Below the pieces are notes generated by a model. That model did not search any database. It was given only the letters and a program-made list of their open reading frames with translations, and was not told the origin of the DNA. Below, in pieces: positions 1,865-31,670 of a stretch of DNA of 42,117 nt. Source of the DNA: Candidatus Sumerlaeota bacterium (GTDB lineage Bacteria > Sumerlaeota > Sumerlaeia > MWCT01); the NCBI GenBank assembly GCA_016931135.1, contig JAFGFK010000009.1, positions 1-42,117 of the forward strand, written 5' to 3'. Position 1 is the stretch's first letter; each line of letters starts with the position of its first letter. The position numbers and the translations under genes are program-made.

Positions 1865-3325
1865 TTGAAAGTATACGAACTGTCAGTGAAAGAAGCAAGG
1901 GATAGACTCCTTCAAAGGGAAATATCCAGCCGCGAACTCACCCTGGGCGTTCTGGAACGAATCCGGGAGATCGATCCAAAGATTCACGCCTACCTTGAGG
2001 TGTCTGAAGAACTTGCCATGGAACAGGCTGAGGAGGCGGACAAACGCCTTGCAAAGGGAGATAACATCTCCCCCCTTACCGGCATTCCCATCGCCATCAA
2101 GGATAACATCTGCGCAAAAGGCGTCCGGACCACGTGCGCCTCCCGCATCCTTGAAAATTTCACCCCCCCCTATGATGCCACTGTTATATCCCATCTAAAG
2201 CAAGCCGGCGCTGTTATCCTGGGAAAAACCAACATGGATGAATTTGCCATGGGCTCATCCACAGAAAACTCCGGTTTTCAAATCACCCGGAATCCCTGGA
2301 ATCTGGAACGAATTCCGGGCGGTTCAAGCGGTGGTTCCGCGGCAGCCGTTGCCTCCGATATGGCGATCTGCGCCCTGGGATCCGATACCGGGGGCTCCAT
2401 CCGCCAGCCCGCCTCCTATTGCAGCGTTGTTGGTTTGAAACCGACCTATGGACGCGTTTCCCGGTACGGTCTTGTGGCGTACGGCTCTTCCCTGGATCAG
2501 ATCGGTCCCCTTACGAAAAACGTGATCGATGCCGCCATTGTGTTATCAGCGATTGCGGGACATGATCCCAGGGACTCTACAAGCGTAAACAAGCCGGTTC
2601 CGGATTATACGTCTTATTGCAGGGAAGAGATCGAGGGGCTGCGGATCGGCGTTCCCCGGGAATATTTCGCTGAAGGTATGGATCCTGAAGTGGCTAACCT
2701 GGTTCATTCCGCCATCAGGCGCATGGAGGAGATGGGAGCGGAAATCGTGGACATCTCCCTCCCCCATACCCAATACGCCATTGCCTGTTATTACATCTGC
2801 GCCATGGCGGAAGCCAGTTCCAATCTTGCGCGTTATGACGGGGCGCATTATGGTTATCGCGCCCCCGATACCGACAATATCATTGAAATGTACAGTAAGA
2901 CACGGGCGCAGGGTTTCGGCGCAGAGGTCAAACGGCGCATCATGCTGGGAACTTACGCCCTTTCAGCCGGGTATTATGACGCCTATTATCTCAAGGCGCT
3001 CCGGGTAAGAACCCTGATCAAGCGGGATTTCGAGAATGCCTTTGAAAAGGTCGATATCGTTGCGACTCCCGTTACTCCGACCGCGGCTTTTAAAATAGGG
3101 GAAAAGATCACCGATCCCCTGACCATGTATCTTTCGGATATCTACACGATATCCCTCAACCTGGCGGGTATGTGCGGGATATCGATACCCTGCGGTTTCA
3201 CCGGAGGCTCTCTGCCGGTTGGATTGCAGCTGATTGCGAATATATTTCAGGAGGATATTCTTTTCCGGGCTGCTTACGCTTATGAACAATCCACCCCGCA
3301 TCATAAAAGGAAGCCGGACATTTAA
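1865..3325 (+). CDS. gatA: Asp-tRNA(Asn)/Glu-tRNA(Gln) amidotransferase subunit A
   Basis: Amidase signature [20 protein letters not shown]...[19 protein letters not shown]...[18 protein letters not shown] start. Confidence 0.95.
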
Positions 3326-3429
3326 AATGAAAAATGAAAAACGAAAAATGAAAAATGAAAAACGAAAAATGAAAAACGAAAAACGGAAAACGGAAAATGA
3401 GAAACGAAAAAATGAAGAACGAGAAATGA
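3324..3429 (+). repeat. Heptamer tandem array, unit AAAAYGR (about 15 units, one 8-bp unit), between gatA and gatB
   Basis: Direct reading: aaaatga aaaatga aaaacga aaaatga aaaatga aaaacga aaaatga aaaacga aaaacgg aaaacgg aaaatga gaaacga aaaaatga agaacga gaaatga. Confidence 0.95.
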
Positions 3430-4871
3430 AAATGGATTTGGAACCTGTCATTGGAATAGAGATACACACGGAACTATCCACGAAATCCAAGATATTTTGC
3501 GGGTGTTCCACAAAGTTCGGTTCTTCTCCCAATACCCAGACGTGTCCGGTTTGCCTGGGTATGCCCGGTTCGCTGCCGGTTCTCAATAAAACCGCTCTGG
3601 AATATACAATCAGGACCGCGCTTGCCCTTCATTGCGAAATAACAGAACATACCACCTTCGATCGAAAGAATTACTACTACCCCGACCTTCCTAAAAATTA
3701 TCAGATATCCCAGAATTACGCCTGCCTGGGTTATAACGGCTGGATCGAGATTTCATCAGGAAAGGGAGTCAAGCGAATCGGAATACACAATGTTCACCTT
3801 GAAGAGGACGCCGGGAAAAACATTCATCCCGAATCGGGAGATTCCAAGGAATACAGCCTGGTTGACCTGAACCGCGCAGGTATGCCCCTGATCGAAATTG
3901 TCTCGGCCCCGGATATGAACGGGGCGAATGACGCCATGGCTTATATGACCATCATGAAAAACCTGCTCCAGTACCTGGAGGCGTCGGATTGCCGGATGCA
4001 GGAGGGGCACCTCAGGTTCGAGGTCAACATCTCCCTGAAACCGAAGGATTCCCGGCGTTTGGGAACCCGGGTAGAAATCAAGAATCTCAACTCCATGAAG
4101 GTGGCGCTTAAAAGCATCGAATACGAGATAGAACGGCAGAAAGAAGTTCTGGAATCGGGCGGGGAAGTAGATCAGGAGACTCGTTTATGGGATGAAGCGG
4201 CTGGGATTACAAGAACCATGAGAACAAAGGAATTCGCCCAGGATTACCGTTATTTCCCGGAACCGGACCTGGTGGAAATACATATCACCCCCGAGTGGCG
4301 GGAGGAAATCCGCAAACATCTTCCCGAGCTGCAGGGACAAAAGCGCAACCGGTTCATATCCCAGTATGGACTCCCCGAATATGACGCCTCTATCCTTACG
4401 GGAAATAAGCTCCTGGCGGATTATTACGAGGAATGCGTCCGTATCCATTCCAATCCCAAAACAGCCAGCAACTGGATCATGACGGAACTTCTTCGCGAGT
4501 TGAATCAAAAGGAATGGGAACCGGATACATGCCCGGTAACTTCAGCCCACATGGGAAACCTTATAAAACTCATGGATGAAGGAGTAATAAGCGGAAAAAT
4601 AGGCAAACAGGTGTTTTCAGAAATGCTGGATACCGGCAAGATGCCAGGGGAAATCATCCGAGATAAGGGTCTGGCGCAAATTACGAGCGAGGATGAAATT
4701 TCCGGTATAGTGGAAGCGGTCATGAAAGAAAACGAGGGAACCGTGGAAGCCATCCGGGGAGGAAGAAACAAGGCGATGGGATTTCTGGTAGGAGAGATCA
4801 TGAAAAAAAGCCGCGGAAAGGCTAATCCCAAACTGGTCAATGAGATATTGAAGAAGAAAATCGGCGTCTGA
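3426..4871 (+). CDS. gatB: Asp-tRNA(Asn)/Glu-tRNA(Gln) amidotransferase subunit B; core starts MKMDLEPVIGIEIHTELST (an in-frame extension through the heptamer repeat is possible)
   Basis: VIGIEIHTELSTKSKIFCGCSTKFG...CPVCLGMPGSLPVLN; GatB/YqeY C-terminal region present. The frame is open upstream from 3234. Confidence 0.95.
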   Translation: MKMDLEPVIGIEIHTELSTKSKIFCGCSTKFGSSPNTQTCPVCLGMPGSLPVLNKTALEYTIRTALALHCEITEHTTFDRKNYYYPDLPKNYQISQNYACLGYNGWIEISSGKGVKRIGIHNVHLEEDAGKNIHPESGDSKEYSLVDLNRAGMPLIEIVSAPDMNGANDAMAYMTIMKNLLQYLEASDCRMQEGHLRFEVNISLKPKDSRRLGTRVEIKNLNSMKVALKSIEYEIERQKEVLESGGEVDQETRLWDEAAGITRTMRTKEFAQDYRYFPEPDLVEIHITPEWREEIRKHLPELQGQKRNRFISQYGLPEYDASILTGNKLLADYYEECVRIHSNPKTASNWIMTELLRELNQKEWEPDTCPVTSAHMGNLIKLMDEGVISGKIGKQVFSEMLDTGKMPGEIIRDKGLAQITSEDEISGIVEAVMKENEGTVEAIRGGRNKAMGFLVGEIMKKSRGKANPKLVNEILKKKIGV

Positions 4872-9443: not shown

Positions 9444-10817
9444 ATGGCTGCCATGAATCAAAACGAGCCGGTGATTATATATTTTTCAGCAGGGCAATGG
9501 CGTCCGCCCCTTCCTGTAGGAGAACTTCGCTATCCCATTTACCTGATTGCTCGAAGGCGTCACGTCCTGTATGTCAATCCGCCGGCAAGTTTACTGGATC
9601 GGCTTTCCGGAAAAAGACGCCGGCGCATACATCCCCCCCCGGATTCCCATCAGAGCGTTCCCGGAACAAAAATGACCGTATTCACTCCTTCCGTGGTCTT
9701 TCCCTATTCCGTGAGACTCCCCATGCCCCTGTTCCTGAAAAACATGATCTTAAACAGGAACATTCAAAGCATTACTTCACAGGTTCTGAACATTTTTCAT
9801 ACTCTTTATCCGGGAAGGGAAAAACCGGATATGGCGTGGGGAACGATTTTCCATCATGCGGGAATTCTGGAGAGATTTCCCGCGCGTCATAAACTGGCGA
9901 TTATCGACGATAATTTTCCGGAAAGCCCGGCGTTCACTCCTTTTCAAAAAAATGAAGTGGCGGAAATGGAGCGCTCCCTGATTTCTTCCGCCGAATATAT
10001 CTTCACGACATCCCGCACCCTTTTCGAGGAAAAAGCAAGGATCAATCCCCATTGCGTGATGATGGAAAACGGGGTATCCGACCTGTTTCTCCCGGAAAAC
10101 AGAGAACATCTTGACGGATTTGCGCATCAATGCCCGCAACAGGAACATAACATCATCGAGCAAATCAAAAGTCTTCCCAAACCCAGGATCGGCTACGTTG
10201 GTGCCTTGAATATAAGGCTTTGGAGGGATTTTCTCGAGGAAATTTTCAAAGCAGCCTCCGGATATCAACTGGTATTCATCGGAAATATCGATGATTCCTT
10301 TCCAATCTCTATGATCGAAAAAATGAAAAATCCGAACATTCATGTCTTTCCCTATATCTCCCATGCGTTGATCCCTTATGCCCTTGAACAGTTCGATTTG
10401 CTTGTTCTCCCCTTTGAATTGACCCGGTTTTCAAGGTTCATCAATCCCCTGAAACTGAGCGAATATCTATCGAGCGGGAAGCCGATTCTCGCAACGCCTC
10501 TGGTAGAAATCAAACGAATAGCGGGAGATTCCCGGGGCATGGTTTATTTTATCGAAAATCCCAAAGATATAAAACATTCCATCGAAAAGGCGTTACGGGA
10601 AGATTCTACAGAGATGAGAGAACGCCGGATCGCCCTCGCGCGCGCCCGCACCTGGCAACGCGTCACCCGCGAGATGCTCTCCCTCGTGGAAACAATCCTG
10701 AAGTCAGACCGGTCAGACTCATCAGACTCATCAGACCCGTCAGACTCATCAGACCGGTCAGACTTGTCTGACTTGTCTGACAAAAATAACCATTCCACTC
10801 CAAGGAAAATCTCATGA
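9444..10817 (+). CDS. Glycosyltransferase (TuaH/GT4-like) with a repeat-encoded SDSSDSSDPSDSSDRSD tail
   Basis: KPRIGYVGALNIRLWRDFLEEIFKAASGYQLVFIGNIDD...PLKLSEYLSSGKPILATPLVEIKRI; ATG at 9444 is in frame with the longer TTG ORF from 9417. Confidence 0.75.
   Translation: MAAMNQNEPVIIYFSAGQWRPPLPVGELRYPIYLIARRRHVLYVNPPASLLDRLSGKRRRRIHPPPDSHQSVPGTKMTVFTPSVVFPYSVRLPMPLFLKNMILNRNIQSITSQVLNIFHTLYPGREKPDMAWGTIFHHAGILERFPARHKLAIIDDNFPESPAFTPFQKNEVAEMERSLISSAEYIFTTSRTLFEEKARINPHCVMMENGVSDLFLPENREHLDGFAHQCPQQEHNIIEQIKSLPKPRIGYVGALNIRLWRDFLEEIFKAASGYQLVFIGNIDDSFPISMIEKMKNPNIHVFPYISHALIPYALEQFDLLVLPFELTRFSRFINPLKLSEYLSSGKPILATPLVEIKRIAGDSRGMVYFIENPKDIKHSIEKALREDSTEMRERRIALARARTWQRVTREMLSLVETILKSDRSDSSDSSDPSDSSDRSDLSDLSDKNNHSTPRKIS
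10703..10781. repeat. 9-bp tandem array TCAGACNNN (7 units) switching to TCTGACNNN (2 units)
   Basis: Direct reading: tcagaccgg tcagactca tcagactca tcagacccg tcagactca tcagaccgg tcagacttg tctgacttg tctgac. Confidence 0.95.
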
Positions 10818-11506
10818 ACGATAGCGACACTCCCCTTCTCCCCCACGGGGGTTATCGGCGTCTTCGCAGTTACAAGGTGGCTGAGGCAATCTATGACGCT
10901 ACGGTAGTATTCTGCAGGCGTTTTTATCCTCATGACCGTAGAATGTCCGATCAGATGATCCAGGCGGCGCGCAGCGGCGTCCGTAACATCAGTGAAGGCA
11001 GCGGCGCTGCAGCCACTTCGCGAAAGACCGAGATGAAACTCACCAATGTCGCGCGCGCCAGTCTCAATGACGAACTGCTGCGCGATTATGAAACTTTTCT
11101 TCGTCAGAATAGCATGCGCATCTGGCAAAAGGATTCACGCGAGGCGCGCGCCATGCGCAAAAGGCTATACGAGGATAATGCGCAGAAGACGCCGCCTCCA
11201 CAACCAGGCAGAATTCGTTTGACCGGGCTTTCCGGATTGGCTGATTTTGTCTCCAGGGCGGAACCGGAACTGGCTGGTAACGCCATGATATGCGCCGTGA
11301 ATCAGGCAGTCTATCTTCTGAAACGCCAGATAGAAAGCCAGGCGCGGATATTTCAGAAGGAAGGGGGATTTACGGAGAGCCTCTACAGACATCGCCAGGA
11401 AGCGCGTTCCAGAGATCAAAAGCCCCACGCTCCCGAGCATTCTGATCAGTCAGACCAGTCAGACCGGTCTGACCAGTCTGACAGGTCTGACCAGCATTCT
11501 GATTAA
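10814..11506 (+). CDS. Four-helix-bundle (S23/IVP-like, four helix bundle suffix-type) protein ending in SDQSDRSD repeats
   Basis: SYKVAEAIYDATVVFCRRFYPHDRRMSDQMIQAARSGVRNISEGSGAAATSRKTEMKLTNVARASLNDELLRDYETFL has the typical S23/IVP helices; suffix region NAMICAVNQAVYLLKRQIESQARIFQKEGGFTESL. Confidence 0.85.
   Translation: MNDSDTPLLPHGGYRRLRSYKVAEAIYDATVVFCRRFYPHDRRMSDQMIQAARSGVRNISEGSGAAATSRKTEMKLTNVARASLNDELLRDYETFLRQNSMRIWQKDSREARAMRKRLYEDNAQKTPPPQPGRIRLTGLSGLADFVSRAEPELAGNAMICAVNQAVYLLKRQIESQARIFQKEGGFTESLYRHRQEARSRDQKPHAPEHSDQSDQSDRSDQSDRSDQHSD
11441..11503. repeat. Second TCAGAC/TCTGAC 9-bp array, with a 16-bp perfect palindrome GTCAGACCGGTCTGAC
   Basis: Direct reading: tctgatcag tcagaccag tcagaccgg tctgaccag tctgacagg tctgaccag cattctgat; arms continue beyond the palindrome after a 2-nt mismatch. 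Confidence 0.95.
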
Positions 11507-12870
11507 AATGGCAAGTCCTGCGCCCGGGCGGCGATTGCGTTATCGCTGGCCATTCCCAGGCGAAGGCGATTACCGTCGCGTTTGAAAAAAATCCTGGATA
11601 CGCCATTCCCATCCTCCCGGGGAAGCTTCCAGGCATGCTGCATTTCATTTTTGGTCGTTCCCTTTCCTGTGGGATAGCGTTTATCCACAAGATTCAGAAA
11701 CGCTTTTGTCGCCTCGTTTGCGTCATGGTCGCTGTCCCAAACGGAATCCCATAGAATCATGAATTTTTCATTTTCATCTTTATACAGGGCGTAACGGTCT
11801 CCATCCCATCCGGCTGCCGCTTCCAAAGCGTCATTGGGAGTCATGTATTGCTCGAATAAAAGTTTGAATCCGATCTCCCCGATCGAGTTTTCGTATTTTT
11901 TCTCCCATGCTTTTCCGAACTGTACCGCGCCAGGAAGAGATACTGTGGTGGGATCATCTATCAAGGATAGATATTTTTCCGGATGAAGAATCTGTTCCGT
12001 AGAACGGGGCAGGTTTCGGAAAGGGATATCGCGCCCTTCCACGCCATTCTGCGCCATGACCTCCATCAGAAACATGGAGCCATGAATATAAGGAAAAACA
12101 AGGAGTTGCTGGAGAAAATAAGGCGCTTCATTATACGCCGTTTGATCCATGCCCAGGGAGGAAAGAACCTGAAAAACAGACTTGAATTCGAAATTTTCCT
12201 TCAACCATTCCGTCATCAGGATCGTGGCGTCGCCTTCCAGAACGCTCAGGATCGCGTAAATCTCGTCGTCATTGTTCCTCTTGTAAAGATTCATGCTATC
12301 GATGTTGAAATTCTGATCCTGCAATACATGGCAGATTTCATGAGAGATTATGACGCCCGTGATTGTCTGATTCAGATCGAACTCCTCGACAACGTAAAAC
12401 CACTTGGTCGCGTCGTCATAGAAACCTGCCGCCTGCTCCGTGTAAAGAGAGATAATCATTTTCTTGATATCCGTTCCGTGAGGAATAAAACCGAGACGCG
12501 CCAGGACATTCTCATAATCATGGAGCGTGTCGCCCGGGTATTGCCGGTCGATCTCCCGAAGGACATAGTTTCGCACATCATCTTTTGTCAGAAATTTGGA
12601 ACGAAGCGGTTCCTTTATCTCAAGGTTGCGAATCCGTGAGACTTCCTTTTGAAAATCCAGCGCCATATCCTGGAGCTGGTATTGTTTCAAGTCCTTTTTG
12701 AGTCTTTCATTTTCTTTACGGAGGATTTGAACCTCCTGTTCCATCAGTTCGATCCTGATTCTTGTTTTTTCATCGAGGTCTTTTTTCCCGAAATTTGCAT
12801 CCGTTTCCGAAAATGAACTTATCCCAAGAAACAAGAAAAAAAGGATCAGAAAACATCTTGACGTTTTCAA
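11503..12870 (-). CDS. Secreted/lipid-anchored metallopeptidase-like protein of unknown family (HEICH motif)
   Basis: N-terminal signal sequence MKTSRCFLILFFLFLGISSFS; zincin-like HExxH in TGVIISHEICHVLQDQNF; coiled-coil-like N-region. Confidence 0.6.
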   Translation of the reverse strand: MKTSRCFLILFFLFLGISSFSETDANFGKKDLDEKTRIRIELMEQEVQILRKENERLKKDLKQYQLQDMALDFQKEVSRIRNLEIKEPLRSKFLTKDDVRNYVLREIDRQYPGDTLHDYENVLARLGFIPHGTDIKKMIISLYTEQAAGFYDDATKWFYVVEEFDLNQTITGVIISHEICHVLQDQNFNIDSMNLYKRNNDDEIYAILSVLEGDATILMTEWLKENFEFKSVFQVLSSLGMDQTAYNEAPYFLQQLLVFPYIHGSMFLMEVMAQNGVEGRDIPFRNLPRSTEQILHPEKYLSLIDDPTTVSLPGAVQFGKAWEKKYENSIGEIGFKLLFEQYMTPNDALEAAAGWDGDRYALYKDENEKFMILWDSVWDSDHDANEATKAFLNLVDKRYPTGKGTTKNEMQHAWKLPREDGNGVSRIFFKRDGNRLRLGMASDNAIAARAQDLPF

Positions 12871-13952: not shown

Positions 13953-13983
13953 AAATTTTCAATTTTTCATTTTTCATTTTACA
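13953..13983. repeat. Short AAAATGA-type heptamer tract (bottom strand), same unit as the gatA-gatB array
   Basis: aaattttcaatttttcatttttcattttaca; the reverse complement reads AAAATGA AAAATGA AAAATTG. Confidence 0.75.
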
Positions 13984-17972: not shown

Positions 17973-18000
17973 TTTGGATTTTGGATTTTAGATTTTGGAA
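17973..18000. repeat. Heptamer repeat TTTGGAT/TTTAGAT (4 units)
   Basis: tttggat tttggat tttagat tttggaa; shares the 27-mer TTTGGATTTTGGATTTTAGATTTTGGA with 22202-22228. Confidence 0.9.
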
Positions 18001-20111: not shown

Positions 20112-21122
20112 ATGAACGATTTGAGAAAGGATCCGATTACCGGAAGATGGGTGATCATTGCCACGGATCGTCTGTTGCGCCCGCATGATTTTCAGAAAAC
20201 CAAGATTATCGAAGAGACATCCCCGGATCGATGCCCCCTTTGCCCGGGACATGAAGCCATGACTCCCCCTGAAATCTGGCGGTGGGAAAATCCCGATCAT
20301 TCCTGGTCTGTTCGCGTGATTCCCAATAAATTCCCGGTATTGCGGATAGAAGGCGACCTCCTGCGCCGCGGCGAGGGGATGTTCGATCATATTTCCGGCA
20401 TTGGGGCGCACGAGTTGATCGTGGATTCGCCTGTTCACTCTCTCACCCTTGAAGATTATGATGCGGAACAGATATTCCGCATCCTTTCCGCTTATAAAAT
20501 CAGGCTGGATGATTTGAAAAAAGACGCGCGGCTCAGGTACGGACTTGTCTTCAAAAATTTCGGAATGGAAGCCGGCGCTTCCCTCCGGCATCCGCATTCC
20601 CAGCTCATCGCCCTGCCAATCATACCCAAAAACGTCAAAGAGGAACTTTCCAGTTGCCGGGATTATTACGAACTCAAGGAACGCTGCCTTTTCTGCGATA
20701 TCATCAGTGACGAGATGGAACACAATAAGCGCATCATTCTCGAATCGGAGCGTCATATTGCCTTGGCGCCTTACGCCTCGCGGTTTCCCTTTGAAATCTG
20801 CATCCTTCCGAAAAAACACGAGGCGTGTTTTACGCGCATCGGGGAAAAGGAATTAAAGGATCTCGCTTCCCTCATGGATAATATCCTGGAGGCGCTGGAT
20901 CGCAGCCTGTCCTCTCCCCCGTTCAATTACATGCTTCATTCGCGACCGTTCCGCGTTTCCGAACGTCATCCGGAAACAACTCTGGATCTGGATTATCACT
21001 GGCATATCGAGATCATCCCGCGGCTGACAAAAATCGCCGGTTTCGAGTGGGGCACGGGATTTTACATCAATCCCACGCCGCCCGAGGAGGCGGCAAAGGC
21101 GCTTCGTGAGGCGATAGATTAA
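20112..21122 (+). CDS. galT: Galactose-1-phosphate uridylyltransferase
   Basis: DLRKDPITGRWVIIATDR...CPLCPGHEAMTPPEI...GASLRHPHSQLIALPIIP (HxHxQ-type active site). Confidence 0.92.
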   Translation: MNDLRKDPITGRWVIIATDRLLRPHDFQKTKIIEETSPDRCPLCPGHEAMTPPEIWRWENPDHSWSVRVIPNKFPVLRIEGDLLRRGEGMFDHISGIGAHELIVDSPVHSLTLEDYDAEQIFRILSAYKIRLDDLKKDARLRYGLVFKNFGMEAGASLRHPHSQLIALPIIPKNVKEELSSCRDYYELKERCLFCDIISDEMEHNKRIILESERHIALAPYASRFPFEICILPKKHEACFTRIGEKELKDLASLMDNILEALDRSLSSPPFNYMLHSRPFRVSERHPETTLDLDYHWHIEIIPRLTKIAGFEWGTGFYINPTPPEEAAKALREAID

Positions 21123-21148
21123 GTTTGAAGGGTGAAGTTTGAAGTTTG
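21121..21148. repeat. Heptamer repeat AAGTTTG/AAGGGTG (4 units) at the galT 3' end
   Basis: aagtttg aagggtg aagtttg aagtttg. Confidence 0.85.
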
Positions 21149-21155
21149 AAAAAAA

Positions 21156-22220
21156 ATGCTGACTTTTTCCCTCATGGTCATAGTTTTTCTTCTGATACTG
21201 GTTTTTGCTTTTTTCAACGGGCTTCATGATATCCCCAATATCATTGCCGCCATGATCGCCTCAGGCTCCATGAAGGCAAAACAGGCGGTCATTCTGGCAT
21301 TGATATGGGAGATCATTGCGCCTCTGGCAGGCGGCTCTATGGTCGCCAAAGCGATTGTTTCACTTGTCCGTTTCGATGAAATGCAGTCCATCGTGGGGAA
21401 AGAAAGCATTCTGCTTGTTTTGGGTTCAGCGGTGTCAGCGGCAATCATCTGGAATTTCATAACATGGCGCTGGGGGATTCCCTCGAGTTCGTCACACGCG
21501 TTATGCGGGGGACTCCTGGGCGCTTCTCTCGTTTGCGTAAGAAGATTATCCATCATACGGTGGGGTATTGCAGGTTTCAATCCTTTTGCATTGAAGGGAT
21601 TTGCCGGCGTGGCTGCTGCCTTGTTTATTTCTCCTTTTTTGGGTTTTATCGCCGGATTCGTTGTATGCAAATTCATGAGATTTCTGCTTCTCCGGGCAAC
21701 GCCAAAGGCAAATGAAAAATTGAAAAAGGCTCAATGGATCACTGCATCGGGGCTTGCCTTCGCCCATGGAACCAATGCCGCGCAAAAATTCATGGGGCTT
21801 TCAGCCCTGGTTCTTGTAACAGGAGGCGCTATTTCAGATTTCCGGATCGGATTCGGAATCAAATTTGCATGTGGTCTGGCTTTATGCATGGGGGCGTTCT
21901 CCGGCGGTTGGAGGATCATCAAGACCGTAGGAACCGGGATATTCCGATTGCGTCCGGAACATGGATTCGATTCACAACTGGCATCCTCTCTGATCATTTG
22001 CGGTAATTCCTTTATTGGGGGTCCGGTTTCATCCACGCACGTGGTATCCTCAACAATCATGGGAGTGGGAACTGCGGTAAGGCAGAAGGCGGTTCGTTGG
22101 AAAAAGGTGTTTGAAATCATCCTGGCATGGTTCATCACCCTGCCCATGACGTTTATCCTGGGAGGGCTGTTATATTGGATATTCCATTTGGGGTTCCGGA
22201 TTTTGGATTTTGGATTTTAG
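21156..22220 (+). CDS. PiT-family inorganic phosphate transporter
   Basis: FFNGLHDIPNIIAAMIASGSMKAKQAV...IPSSSSHALCGGLLGA...GGPVSSTHVVSSTIMGVG. Confidence 0.93.
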   Translation: MLTFSLMVIVFLLILVFAFFNGLHDIPNIIAAMIASGSMKAKQAVILALIWEIIAPLAGGSMVAKAIVSLVRFDEMQSIVGKESILLVLGSAVSAAIIWNFITWRWGIPSSSSHALCGGLLGASLVCVRRLSIIRWGIAGFNPFALKGFAGVAAALFISPFLGFIAGFVVCKFMRFLLLRATPKANEKLKKAQWITASGLAFAHGTNAAQKFMGLSALVLVTGGAISDFRIGFGIKFACGLALCMGAFSGGWRIIKTVGTGIFRLRPEHGFDSQLASSLIICGNSFIGGPVSSTHVVSSTIMGVGTAVRQKAVRWKKVFEIILAWFITLPMTFILGGLLYWIFHLGFRILDFGF

Positions 22221-22275
22221 ATTTTGGATTTCCTTCCCAGTATATCCAGCATCCAGCATCCAGTATCAACATCCA
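22201..22275. repeat. Composite heptamer repeats: (TTTTGGA)4 followed by (ATCCAGC)n
   Basis: ttttgga ttttgga ttttaga ttttgga at 22201-22228, then tatccagcatccagcatccagtatcaacatcc. The pit gene stop codon lies inside the first tract. Confidence 0.9.
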
Positions 22276-29571: not shown

Positions 29572-31670
29572 TCAATCCGGTATAAATACATGCTTCCCGC
29601 CTTTTTCAGGAGACAAAGATTTTCTTGCGCCATAGTCAGAAAAAACTCGAGTTCCTTGTTTCCCAATTGGCGCAGTTTTTGATTTTCCGATCCTTTTTTA
29701 TATCCGGAACCGAACCATTTTCCCGGCAGGTTCAGATCGGCCAGGATGTGAGTATATCCCATTTTTTTCAGTTCAATAGAGGCTTCTTTCGGATTTTCAA
29801 ATTTCAGCATGGCAAGGGCAAAGATGTTTCCGGATGCGTCCTCCTGATAATCCCGCCTTATATAATACCCGCGTTTTTCCCATAAGAGAAGAATCCTGGA
29901 TTCCTGGGGGAGGTTTTCATTGATATAATCGATTACAGGCTGGATTCCTGCGGGATTGGCGCGGGAAAGATAGGAAGATTTCGTCTCGAAGCCCATCAGA
30001 TAATACAGGGGATTGATCGAAGCGAATATCAGAATCTGAGACGCCAGGGTAATTAGGAGCATGATCAGGATGATCCCCTTTAAAGCCTTCATGGCATATG
30101 CCATCAGGATATGATCTATGAGTTCCAGGCGATGGATGACATAAGCCAGCAGAATAGTCATGAGAAGAAGAACCGGAGTCAAATATCGCGTAATGGGCTG
30201 CATGACATGCCACTGGCAATAGACAATCAGCGCGTAAAACAAAAGCGTTTTCACATGTTCCGGTTTTTTACGGAAGAAAAATATAAATGGGAAAAACATC
30301 AAATAAAACGGCGCCGCCAGAGTATCGAAAACCTGCATGGGCCAATCCCCATAAATTGTGGCGTTATAAGGAATAAGGAGGAAATCGAGGAACGAGGAAC
30401 GGGGATACGCCCCTTTATAGAGAAGGGCGTTTCTTTCCCGCAATTGCGCGATGGGAGATTTTGCATCTGTGGCATTTCCAGTTTGCGTCTTGATTCCTGC
30501 AGCAAGGCGCAGGTGGTTGGAAATCCGATACGGGGCGAACGGCATTCCGTATAACAGGGTATTTTTGATCATCCAGGGGGAAAAGACGGCAAGAGCCACG
30601 GCTCCATAGATGAACAGACTTGAAATCCATGCCTTCCATTTATTTTTCCATTCCCCAATCCCATAGAAGAAAAATACGCCGATGATTCCCATTATGCCGA
30701 AAAGGGTTGTATATTTGACGCCCAGGCTGAATCCCGCGCAAACCGCGGAGAAATAAAAGTAATAATTTCTCCGGAGATTTTTTTCGGAACGGGAGCAGCC
30801 ATCCCTCCAGATCAAGAGGGAGAAAATCATGACGCCTTCAAAAAAAGCCAAACCAAGATCGACGTTGGCGCGGGAGCTGATATAATATACAAGCCAGCTG
30901 CAATAAAAAAAGGCGCAGGGAAGAAGCGCATTGAACGTAAAAAACTTTTTTACAAAAGCCCAGATCAAAGCCAGGCACAATACGCCAAAATAAAAATTGA
31001 TCAGTTTTGCCAGAATATCGCTGTGCAACAGCATGGCGAAAGCATAAAGCATCTCGACATTCTGGGGAAATTTAGCCTGCTCCCCCATGTTTTCGATGAT
31101 AACGAATCCATGATTCCGGATATAGGTTTGCGGGACATTCAGATGATATTGCTGTTCATCGAGCCCGCTGGGCGGCGCCAGGGCGAAAAGAAGATTCATC
31201 AGGATAAATAAAACAAGGATAAAGACAAGCGTGACATCAAAGAGGGAGGATAATGAGGGTATCCTTATCTTGAGCGACTTGATTGCCCGGATCAAATCCT
31301 TGTAACTTAAAATGCCCAATAATATCAGGAGAAATATCACAGCGGGCTTTGTCAGAAGGTGAATAAACGCCAGAATGGCGGTACCGAAGGCGAAAATCAT
31401 AAATCCCATCGCTGAGGAAACAAGAAAAGACGCCATAGGCTCCATCTCGATACGGGACAAGAACCGGATCAGGGTTCTCCCCAGGCTATAAGCCAGCAAT
31501 GCCAGAAAGAAAAGGATCAGGAGGGGAAGAATTGTAGAATCCAGAAGATTGAAAGCCTTCGCATAGGTTTTATGATTGTTGACATATTGAAAAAATATAA
31601 AAACAACCCATACGAGCGCAAATAAACCGGGGAGATTTTTGATTCCATGAGTTTTCATATTCACTTCCAA
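29568..31670 (-). CDS. Polytopic membrane glycosyltransferase-like protein (700 aa), resembling the protein at 5751-7814
   Basis: LAPPSGLDEQQYHLNVPQTYIRNHGF...FPQNVEMLYAFAMLLHSDILAKLINFYFG; many TM helices. Convergent with, and overlapping, the 28597 gene. Confidence 0.68.
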   Translation of the reverse strand: MEVNMKTHGIKNLPGLFALVWVVFIFFQYVNNHKTYAKAFNLLDSTILPLLILFFLALLAYSLGRTLIRFLSRIEMEPMASFLVSSAMGFMIFAFGTAILAFIHLLTKPAVIFLLILLGILSYKDLIRAIKSLKIRIPSLSSLFDVTLVFILVLFILMNLLFALAPPSGLDEQQYHLNVPQTYIRNHGFVIIENMGEQAKFPQNVEMLYAFAMLLHSDILAKLINFYFGVLCLALIWAFVKKFFTFNALLPCAFFYCSWLVYYISSRANVDLGLAFFEGVMIFSLLIWRDGCSRSEKNLRRNYYFYFSAVCAGFSLGVKYTTLFGIMGIIGVFFFYGIGEWKNKWKAWISSLFIYGAVALAVFSPWMIKNTLLYGMPFAPYRISNHLRLAAGIKTQTGNATDAKSPIAQLRERNALLYKGAYPRSSFLDFLLIPYNATIYGDWPMQVFDTLAAPFYLMFFPFIFFFRKKPEHVKTLLFYALIVYCQWHVMQPITRYLTPVLLLMTILLAYVIHRLELIDHILMAYAMKALKGIILIMLLITLASQILIFASINPLYYLMGFETKSSYLSRANPAGIQPVIDYINENLPQESRILLLWEKRGYYIRRDYQEDASGNIFALAMLKFENPKEASIELKKMGYTHILADLNLPGKWFGSGYKKGSENQKLRQLGNKELEFFLTMAQENLCLLKKAGSMYLYRID

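Follow-up and report, generated by a model that had tools for sequence, protein, structure and literature searches.

In the genome of a Candidatus Sumerlaeota bacterium, a small gene encoding a four-helix-bundle protein is enclosed by two arrays of a 9-bp repeat, and this raises the question whether gene and arrays constitute a mobile unit whose protein acts on the repeat. The window analyzed here is the whole 42,117-nucleotide stretch of contig JAFGFK010000009.1 (assembly GCA_016931135.1), and its features are collected in Table 1. A preliminary description had suggested that the protein may bind or help spread the repeat, analogous to a REP/RAYT pair, and that the unit inserted at the 3' end of a host gene.

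The locus and its four-helix protein

The gene P0001 is flanked on both sides by GTCNGACNN arrays, and TCAGACNNNTCAGAC, with at most one mismatch, has 14 matches in the window vs. 0.11 expected, a number equaled in none of 100 shuffles. The units of the first array read (G/A)TC(A/T)GACNN, the final two being GTCTGAC, while the second array (11441–11503; TRF span 11441–11494, six units) includes a perfect 16-bp palindrome, GTCAGACCGGTCTGAC, at 11458–11473. Both arrays are translated. The first forms the SDRSDSSDSSDPSDSSDRSDLSDLSD tail of the glycosyltransferase P0002, whose reading frame continues through the array since 9 bp equal three codons, and the second forms the SDQSDQSDRSDQSDRSDQHSD tail of P0001. 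The TGA of P0002 overlaps the ATG of P0001 (ATGA, 10814–10817), and the TAA of P0001 (11504–11506) overlaps the stop of the convergent P0003 (from 11503). The two arrays, the SD-rich tails, the palindrome and the overlapping stops had all been described before, and all were confirmed. The accompanying claim that the arrays switch orientation internally mostly did not hold, since it is the central base of the near-palindromic GTC-W-GAC that changes, with the 9-bp phase kept. Because this heptamer is near-palindromic, both arrays fold as single-stranded DNA better than their shuffles (z −2.3 and −4.3 for arrays 1 and 2).

Table 1. Features of the window discussed in the text.
Feature	Position	Strand	Remark
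Host gene P0002, TuaH-like glycosyltransferase	9444–10817	+	C-terminus from about residue 426 extended by array
Upstream array, nine 9-bp units GTC(A/T)GACNN	10703–10781	+	Left end of unit; in-frame SD-rich tail of P0002
Four-helix-bundle suffix gene P0001, 230 aa, S23/IVP fold	10814–11506	+	
Downstream array, six 9-bp units, mostly GTCTGACNN	11441–11503	+	Right end of unit; codes SD tail of P0001
Convergent neighbor P0003, Hvo_1808-like (below cut-off)	11503–12870	−	
Solo 7-bp array AAAATGA	3324–3432		Motif of plain gene L053, contig C360, own genome
Solo 7-bp array TTTTCAT	13954–13980		Motif of L053
Solo 7-bp array TTTGGAT	17973–17999		Motif of plain gene L052, contig C72
Solo 7-bp array GGATTTT	22198–22231		Motif of L052

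P0001 scored 59.6 bits against TIGR04258 (residues 151–199; curated cut-off 40 bits) and 27.9 bits against TIGR02436 (curated cut-off 24 bits). Against Pfam PF05635 (23S_rRNA_IVP) it reached 26.4 bits, under the gathering cut-off of 33.8, and L139, a plain relative (i.e., a TIGR02436 protein without the suffix), reached 144.4 bits. The AlphaFold (AF2) model of P0001 (pLDDT 83.8) best matched 2gsc (XCC0516, Z 15.7) and 2rld (Z 14.0), compared with about 11 for unrelated helical bundles, and among the listed solved chains only these two S23 proteins stood out. The earlier assignment to S23/IVP-like four-helix proteins is therefore supported, by both TIGR models above cut-off and by the nearest fold. 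The listed chains did not include Avd, so that the fold comparison excludes nothing in this respect; in Pfam searches, P0001 had no bAvd match and L139 had a weak one (31.5 bits, cut-off 40).

The four-helix protein is the only gene of the unit, in which no transposase was found by Pfam and NCBIfam. To our knowledge, no nuclease or catalytic motif has been recognized in the S23-type four-helix family, and mobilization may therefore need other enzymes. An anti-phage defense system was rejected, since P0001, L139, and the suffix relative L041 had no match among the PADLOC models, and so was a known structured RNA, since the window had no Rfam match. Some suffix proteins bear a C-terminal Top1-type C4 zinc ribbon (L038 1330–2052, L041 1000–1908, L043, and L047), with PF01396 above cut-off in two of them, L038 and L041; the topoisomerase-type zinc ribbon is a nucleic-acid-binding (DNA-binding) domain.

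Array period and motif at related genes

The same genome encodes five suffix paralogues, four of which have clear 9-bp arrays, each with its own motif: GTCNGAC (P0001), GTCCATC/GTCCACG (L016), TTCCCAT (L018), and GTCCCTT (L019). In the fifth, L017, a GTCCGTG/CACGGAC array was seen by eye only and lies under the detection threshold. Two of the five, L018 and L019, have internal stops, as expected of decaying mobile genes. Four plain TIGR02436 genes are also present, and their arrays have a 7-bp period instead. L020 on contig C177, which has a 7-bp array, was at first taken for a sixth paralogue but was rejected for want of a four-helix gene; its match to the window array at 21121–21150 is thus one of solo array with solo array and is not counted in support of a gene.

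The association extends well beyond this genome. Among 26 plain loci in 40 genomes of this phylum, 23 have flanking arrays (7-bp in 20, 8-bp in 3), and none has 9- or 10-bp flanking arrays. In a second set of 30 independent plain loci, taken from another group of 395 genomes, 7-bp arrays were found at 26 and 7- or 8-bp arrays at 28, with arrays on both sides at 22 under a looser threshold. Plain genes on plasmids gave a similar picture (7- or 8-bp arrays at 16 of 17; 16 cyanobacterial and one from Gemmatirosa). A few plain genes lack clear arrays. As for controls, arrays on both sides were seen at none of 30 infC loci in the same 40 genomes and in none of 228 windows far from suffix genes.

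A scan of 84,980 species genomes returned at least 562 suffix-type loci in many phyla. Among the best 80, which were kept, 9-bp arrays occur in the flanks of 22 and inside the gene in 27, mostly in the linker ahead of the suffix helix. No arrays were found inside the genes of the 26 plain loci, and this restriction to the suffix class is expected if the reading frame must hold, because 9 bases make three codons and 7 do not. The suffix period is 9 bp and in a few cases 10 bp; the longer one was noted in a subgroup with the CACGGAC/GTCCGTG or a similar motif (L026, L030, L038, L130, and L131). The subfamily thus sets the period, 7–8 bp for plain TIGR02436 genes and 9–10 bp for the suffix form.

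Spread by phage was also considered and rejected, since viral contigs contained no relative of the suffix type and phage records none of the plain type. Plain genes do occur on six viral contigs, with arrays at five.

The two arrays of a plain locus are mutual reverse complements. In the first set the mean cosine was 0.65 for inverted, 0.07 for direct, and 0.05 for shuffled partners (19 vs. 1 in favor of inverted), and in the second set the values were 0.49, 0.00, and 0.05, respectively. For the suffix class the count was 6 inverted and 10 direct, with the direction ambiguous for GTCNGAC because it is near-palindromic; suffix loci with directional motifs are inverted (e.g., L021, L121, and L133), and no motif apart from GTCNGAC is palindromic. 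Most suffix motifs have GTCC as a common core, after which come three variable bases and two of spacer, the clades differing in the variable part (GTCCTAT, GTCCGAT, GTCCAC, GTCCATC, and, at a 10-bp period, GTCCGTG).

Motif and protein vary together. Across 65 suffix loci, motif similarity correlated with protein identity (Mantel r 0.50; best permutation 0.13, 0 of 2000), and the correlation was weaker across 44 plain loci (r 0.19, 0 of 2000 permutations), so that motif turnover, judged from these sequence comparisons, appears to be faster in the plain class than in the suffix class. The nine closest relatives of P0001 among the matches listed (62–75% identity, tblastn), from Verrucomicrobia, Planctomycetota, and Lentisphaerae, all have GTCNGAC-type arrays. 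Arrays travel with the gene between phyla. However, linkage of a gene to its adjacent arrays could by itself give such a correlation, and the Mantel result alone is no proof of recognition; it is for this reason that copies in trans matter.

Arrays without a gene and sites without a unit

In the window, four of six 7-bp arrays match the motifs of the resident plain genes L052 and L053 (Table 1), which foreign gene motifs did in 0 of 500 draws. Other 7-bp arrays of the window have no known resident gene (ATCCAGC, 22244–22263; AAGTTTG, 21121–21150; GGAACGA, 30366–30401), and the AAGTTTG array was found again at L020 on contig C177. In 400 kb of another genome, G030, 22 of 37 arrays have the motif of L035, a gene located on another contig; foreign motifs gave a mean of 6.6 and a maximum of 28 matches there, so the excess is weaker, the L035 motif being common to some other genomes.

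Whole-genome counts of motif triplets in the 40 genomes agree with this. GTCCAT triplets number 283 in G030, 120 in G007, and 54 in G016 and are absent from 30 of the 40, and reversed-pattern controls were zero in every one of them. G000 has no exact GTCCAT triplets, though L016 has its GTCCATC/GTCCACG array, which indicates the imperfect reach of the pattern. GAGTGGC triplets are confined to two of the 40 genomes, G018, where the gene is present, and G019, which has a single one. GTCNGAC triplets were found wherever a gene of the same motif is visible (three genomes), but also in five genomes without such a gene. These five, the fragmented assemblies G004, G005, G006, G007, and G016, contain many GTCNGAC arrays; the cognate gene might have been lost from them, or might have been missed since assemblies break at repeats. 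The preliminary description held that arrays spread genome-wide without a link to four-helix genes would refute it. Arrays are indeed found genome-wide, yet they are strongly associated with four-helix genes of the same motif, and what remains on the other side is that some genomes have arrays and no visible cognate gene.

Solo arrays often form convergent pairs 11–103 bp apart, with the polarity seen around genes. This polarity was found in all 10 GTCCAT pairs among the matches listed and in five pairs in the sequence examined. The sequence between paired arrays is unrelated from pair to pair. On contig C1 of G030 (L265, L270, L272, L274, L279, and L281), we also noted 8-bp arrays of the CACAAAGA / TCTTTGCG type and 9-bp ATGGGANNN arrays with no visible cognate gene.

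Discrete insertion was observed at three cyanobacterial plasmid loci, for which filled and unfilled versions exist in relatives. Between nrdB and nrdA, array, gene, and inverted array are present in Nostoc edaphicum pNe_5, where Calothrix NIES-4105 has a short intergenic stretch; between cas10 and cmr3, the unit of Picosynechococcus PCC 7003 is represented by 12 bp in PCC 7002; and between cas6 and cas4, an 849-bp unit in Anabaena sp. 90 is represented by a short spacer in Nostoc UHCC 0302. Within alignment resolution, the ends of the three insertions are the arrays. No target-site duplication was recognizable in these comparisons, in which flanks had diverged or the site was altered. Dolichospermum UHCC 0315A, whose flanks are 98–99% identical to those of Anabaena sp. 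90, has a different, 273-bp insert between cas6 and cas4 (L321 1333–1605), and the ends of this insert look like inverted AGTAGGTTGGGTT copies, in the manner of a MITE. Array-ended units were noted within CRISPR-Cas operons of cyanobacterial plasmids three times, twice at cas6|cas4 and once at cas10|cmr3 (L304, L305, and L307).

For the window locus itself, the closest orthologue of P0002 (57% identity; L168 in G014) ends ahead of the SD tail, and is followed by a convergent orthologue of P0003 with neither four-helix gene nor 9-bp array between them. This supports the earlier proposal of a unit whose insertion at the 3' end of a gene lengthened the host reading frame, a proposal that would have been refuted by glycosyltransferases that always carry the SD tail without an adjacent four-helix gene. 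As other small ORFs lie between the two genes in G014, the locus is orthologous without being an unfilled site in the exact sense. The comparison with loci lacking the unit that had been called for is thus met by G014, and more cleanly by the three plasmid loci.

A proposed mobile repeat-ended element and its alternatives

In the arrays, six core positions have 1.8–2.0 bits of information and three spacer positions 0.25–0.54 bits (the selection of arrays favors the core somewhat). A conserved core with a variable spacer resembles a protein-binding array, and the four-helix protein could conceivably act on its private arrays as a regulator or nucleoid protein; the arrays would then spread through slippage and recombination, whereas the gene, along with its arrays, would move only passively. 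The lack of a known catalytic motif would agree with this. Heptamer and octamer arrays in Geobacter metallireducens were guessed to be sites of an unidentified global regulator (PMC2700814). We nevertheless consider a regulator unlikely, since discrete insertions bounded by arrays, scattered occurrence across many phyla, two of five resident copies broken by stops, and the fixed polarity of convergent pairs that lack a gene all suit mobility better.

Alternatively, inverted arrays might act in a transcript as a hairpin that the protein binds, as in the intervening sequences (IVS) of 23S rRNA, with movement via RNA or a reverse transcriptase. S23 ORFs are found within such IVS, which have terminal inverted repeats, and tandem GACAGAT heptamers precede the S23 ORF of the Coxiella IVS (PMC4990558); further, inverted 7-bp arrays are able to pair, and a plain protein has the weak bAvd score given above. 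However, in the 9-bp GTCCAT pairs the spacer bases of the two arms are complementary at 20 of 57 positions vs. 24.7 expected, and the window has no Rfam match, which leaves this route only a slender chance. The hairpin as the functional unit, an idea of the preliminary description, is not supported for the 9-bp class on the same grounds, as arm spacers are complementary no more than by chance.

That the arrays are ordinary microsatellites near neutral genes, with the four-helix genes as bystanders, is hardly credible, for although the intergenic DNA of bacteria commonly contains heptamer arrays (PMC6344855, PMC4692102), the association controls (none of 30 infC loci and none of 228 distal windows) already contradict it, as do the subfamily-specific period, the gene's own motif on both its sides, and the solo arrays with resident motifs.

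Taken together, the association of genes and arrays, the period set by subfamily, the private inverted motifs, the solo arrays with resident motifs, and the discrete insertions lead us to think it probable that these genes belong to REPIN/RAYT-like, mobile, repeat-ended elements in which an S23-family protein recognizes its own array, and that 10703–11503 is one copy. The suggested pairing of protein and repeat is supported by the same-motif association; binding and catalysis are inferred, and no binding, cleavage, or transposition has been observed. The solved Xanthomonas S23 protein (XCC0516) was reported to be a homopentamer (PMC4990558), and we infer that an S23-type protein of this kind may bind tandem heptamers in register, its recognition surface diverging along with the motif, and may bring two inverted arrays together. 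The unit and the gene-less pairs would then be copied or moved by the protein itself or by host enzymes. Tandem duplication would change the number of units, and binding would conserve the core but leave the two or three spacer bases free to drift. In the window, the element may have landed on the last codons of P0002, and its gene may have become translationally coupled through the ATGA.

Among known systems, REP/REPIN sequences with RAYT are a close comparison, as there too a dedicated gene lies beside short repeats of its own that are scattered through intergenic DNA, often as inverted doublets, and the pairing of repeat and protein is group-specific. They differ in having an HUH (Y1) tyrosine transposase (TnpA-REP) where an S23-type four-helix bundle is found here, and palindromes of 20–40 bp rather than tandem arrays of 7–10 bp. 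Dispersed inverted doublets are shared, whereas an adjacent Y1/HUH transposase and a hairpin-selected palindrome are not. Terminal inverted arrays bounding a discrete insertion are as expected of a MITE or insertion sequence, but, unlike in a normal MITE, the sequence between paired solo arrays is unrelated. The 23S rRNA IVS with S23 ORF (Leptospira, Coxiella) is likewise small, with inverted ends and a single ORF of the S23 family; however, it lies within rRNA and is removed by RNase III, whereas the unit here lies between protein genes, at the 3' end of one. Avd of diversity-generating retroelements has a related four-helix fold, as indicated by the weak bAvd match of the plain relative, but that score is under the cut-off, and the unit here is array-ended with a single gene.

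The arrays at plain genes are of the same kind as the intergenic tandem heptamers of bacteria (cyanobacterial STRR, TAACTGA, GGGAATC), and the suffix class differs in its 9–10-bp period (heptamer plus spacer). No gene has been tied to these heptamers in the literature found: none was described for the GGGAATC heptamers of Xanthomonas, often in convergent pairs (PMC4692102), or the TAACTGA heptamers of Beggiatoaceae (PMC4679880), those of Geobacter were ascribed to the regulator mentioned above, and a survey of heptamers gave no clue on function (PMC6344855). The GACAGAT units were reported for Coxiella only (PMC4990558), and are an isolated hint at a link. We found no paper that joins heptamer repeats with S23-type genes, in a search confined to open-licence literature, from which priority cannot be judged.

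The recurrence of this arrangement in many bacterial phyla, together with discrete insertion, suggests a class of mobile elements that has not been named, and the array-ended insertions point to a class lacking a recognizable nuclease. A broader proposition, on which we are evenly divided, is that S23/IVP proteins are new transposition or array-maintenance proteins, each with its own heptamer code, that spread genes and gene-less pairs and are the missing source of heptamers in cyanobacteria, Xanthomonas, Geobacter, Beggiatoaceae, and many others. If the model is true, GGGAATC arrays are predicted to flank XCC0516; our second sample (395 genomes) had no close relative of this protein (best 62%). 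Such a class of elements could explain the common and hitherto unexplained heptamer repeats of bacteria, and, where a motif is tied to a neighboring four-helix gene, repeat and protein each have a testable partner. The private motifs of the paralogues, the two periods of the subfamilies, and the GTCC core common to most suffix motifs constitute a natural library that could serve for reading a protein-to-DNA recognition code.
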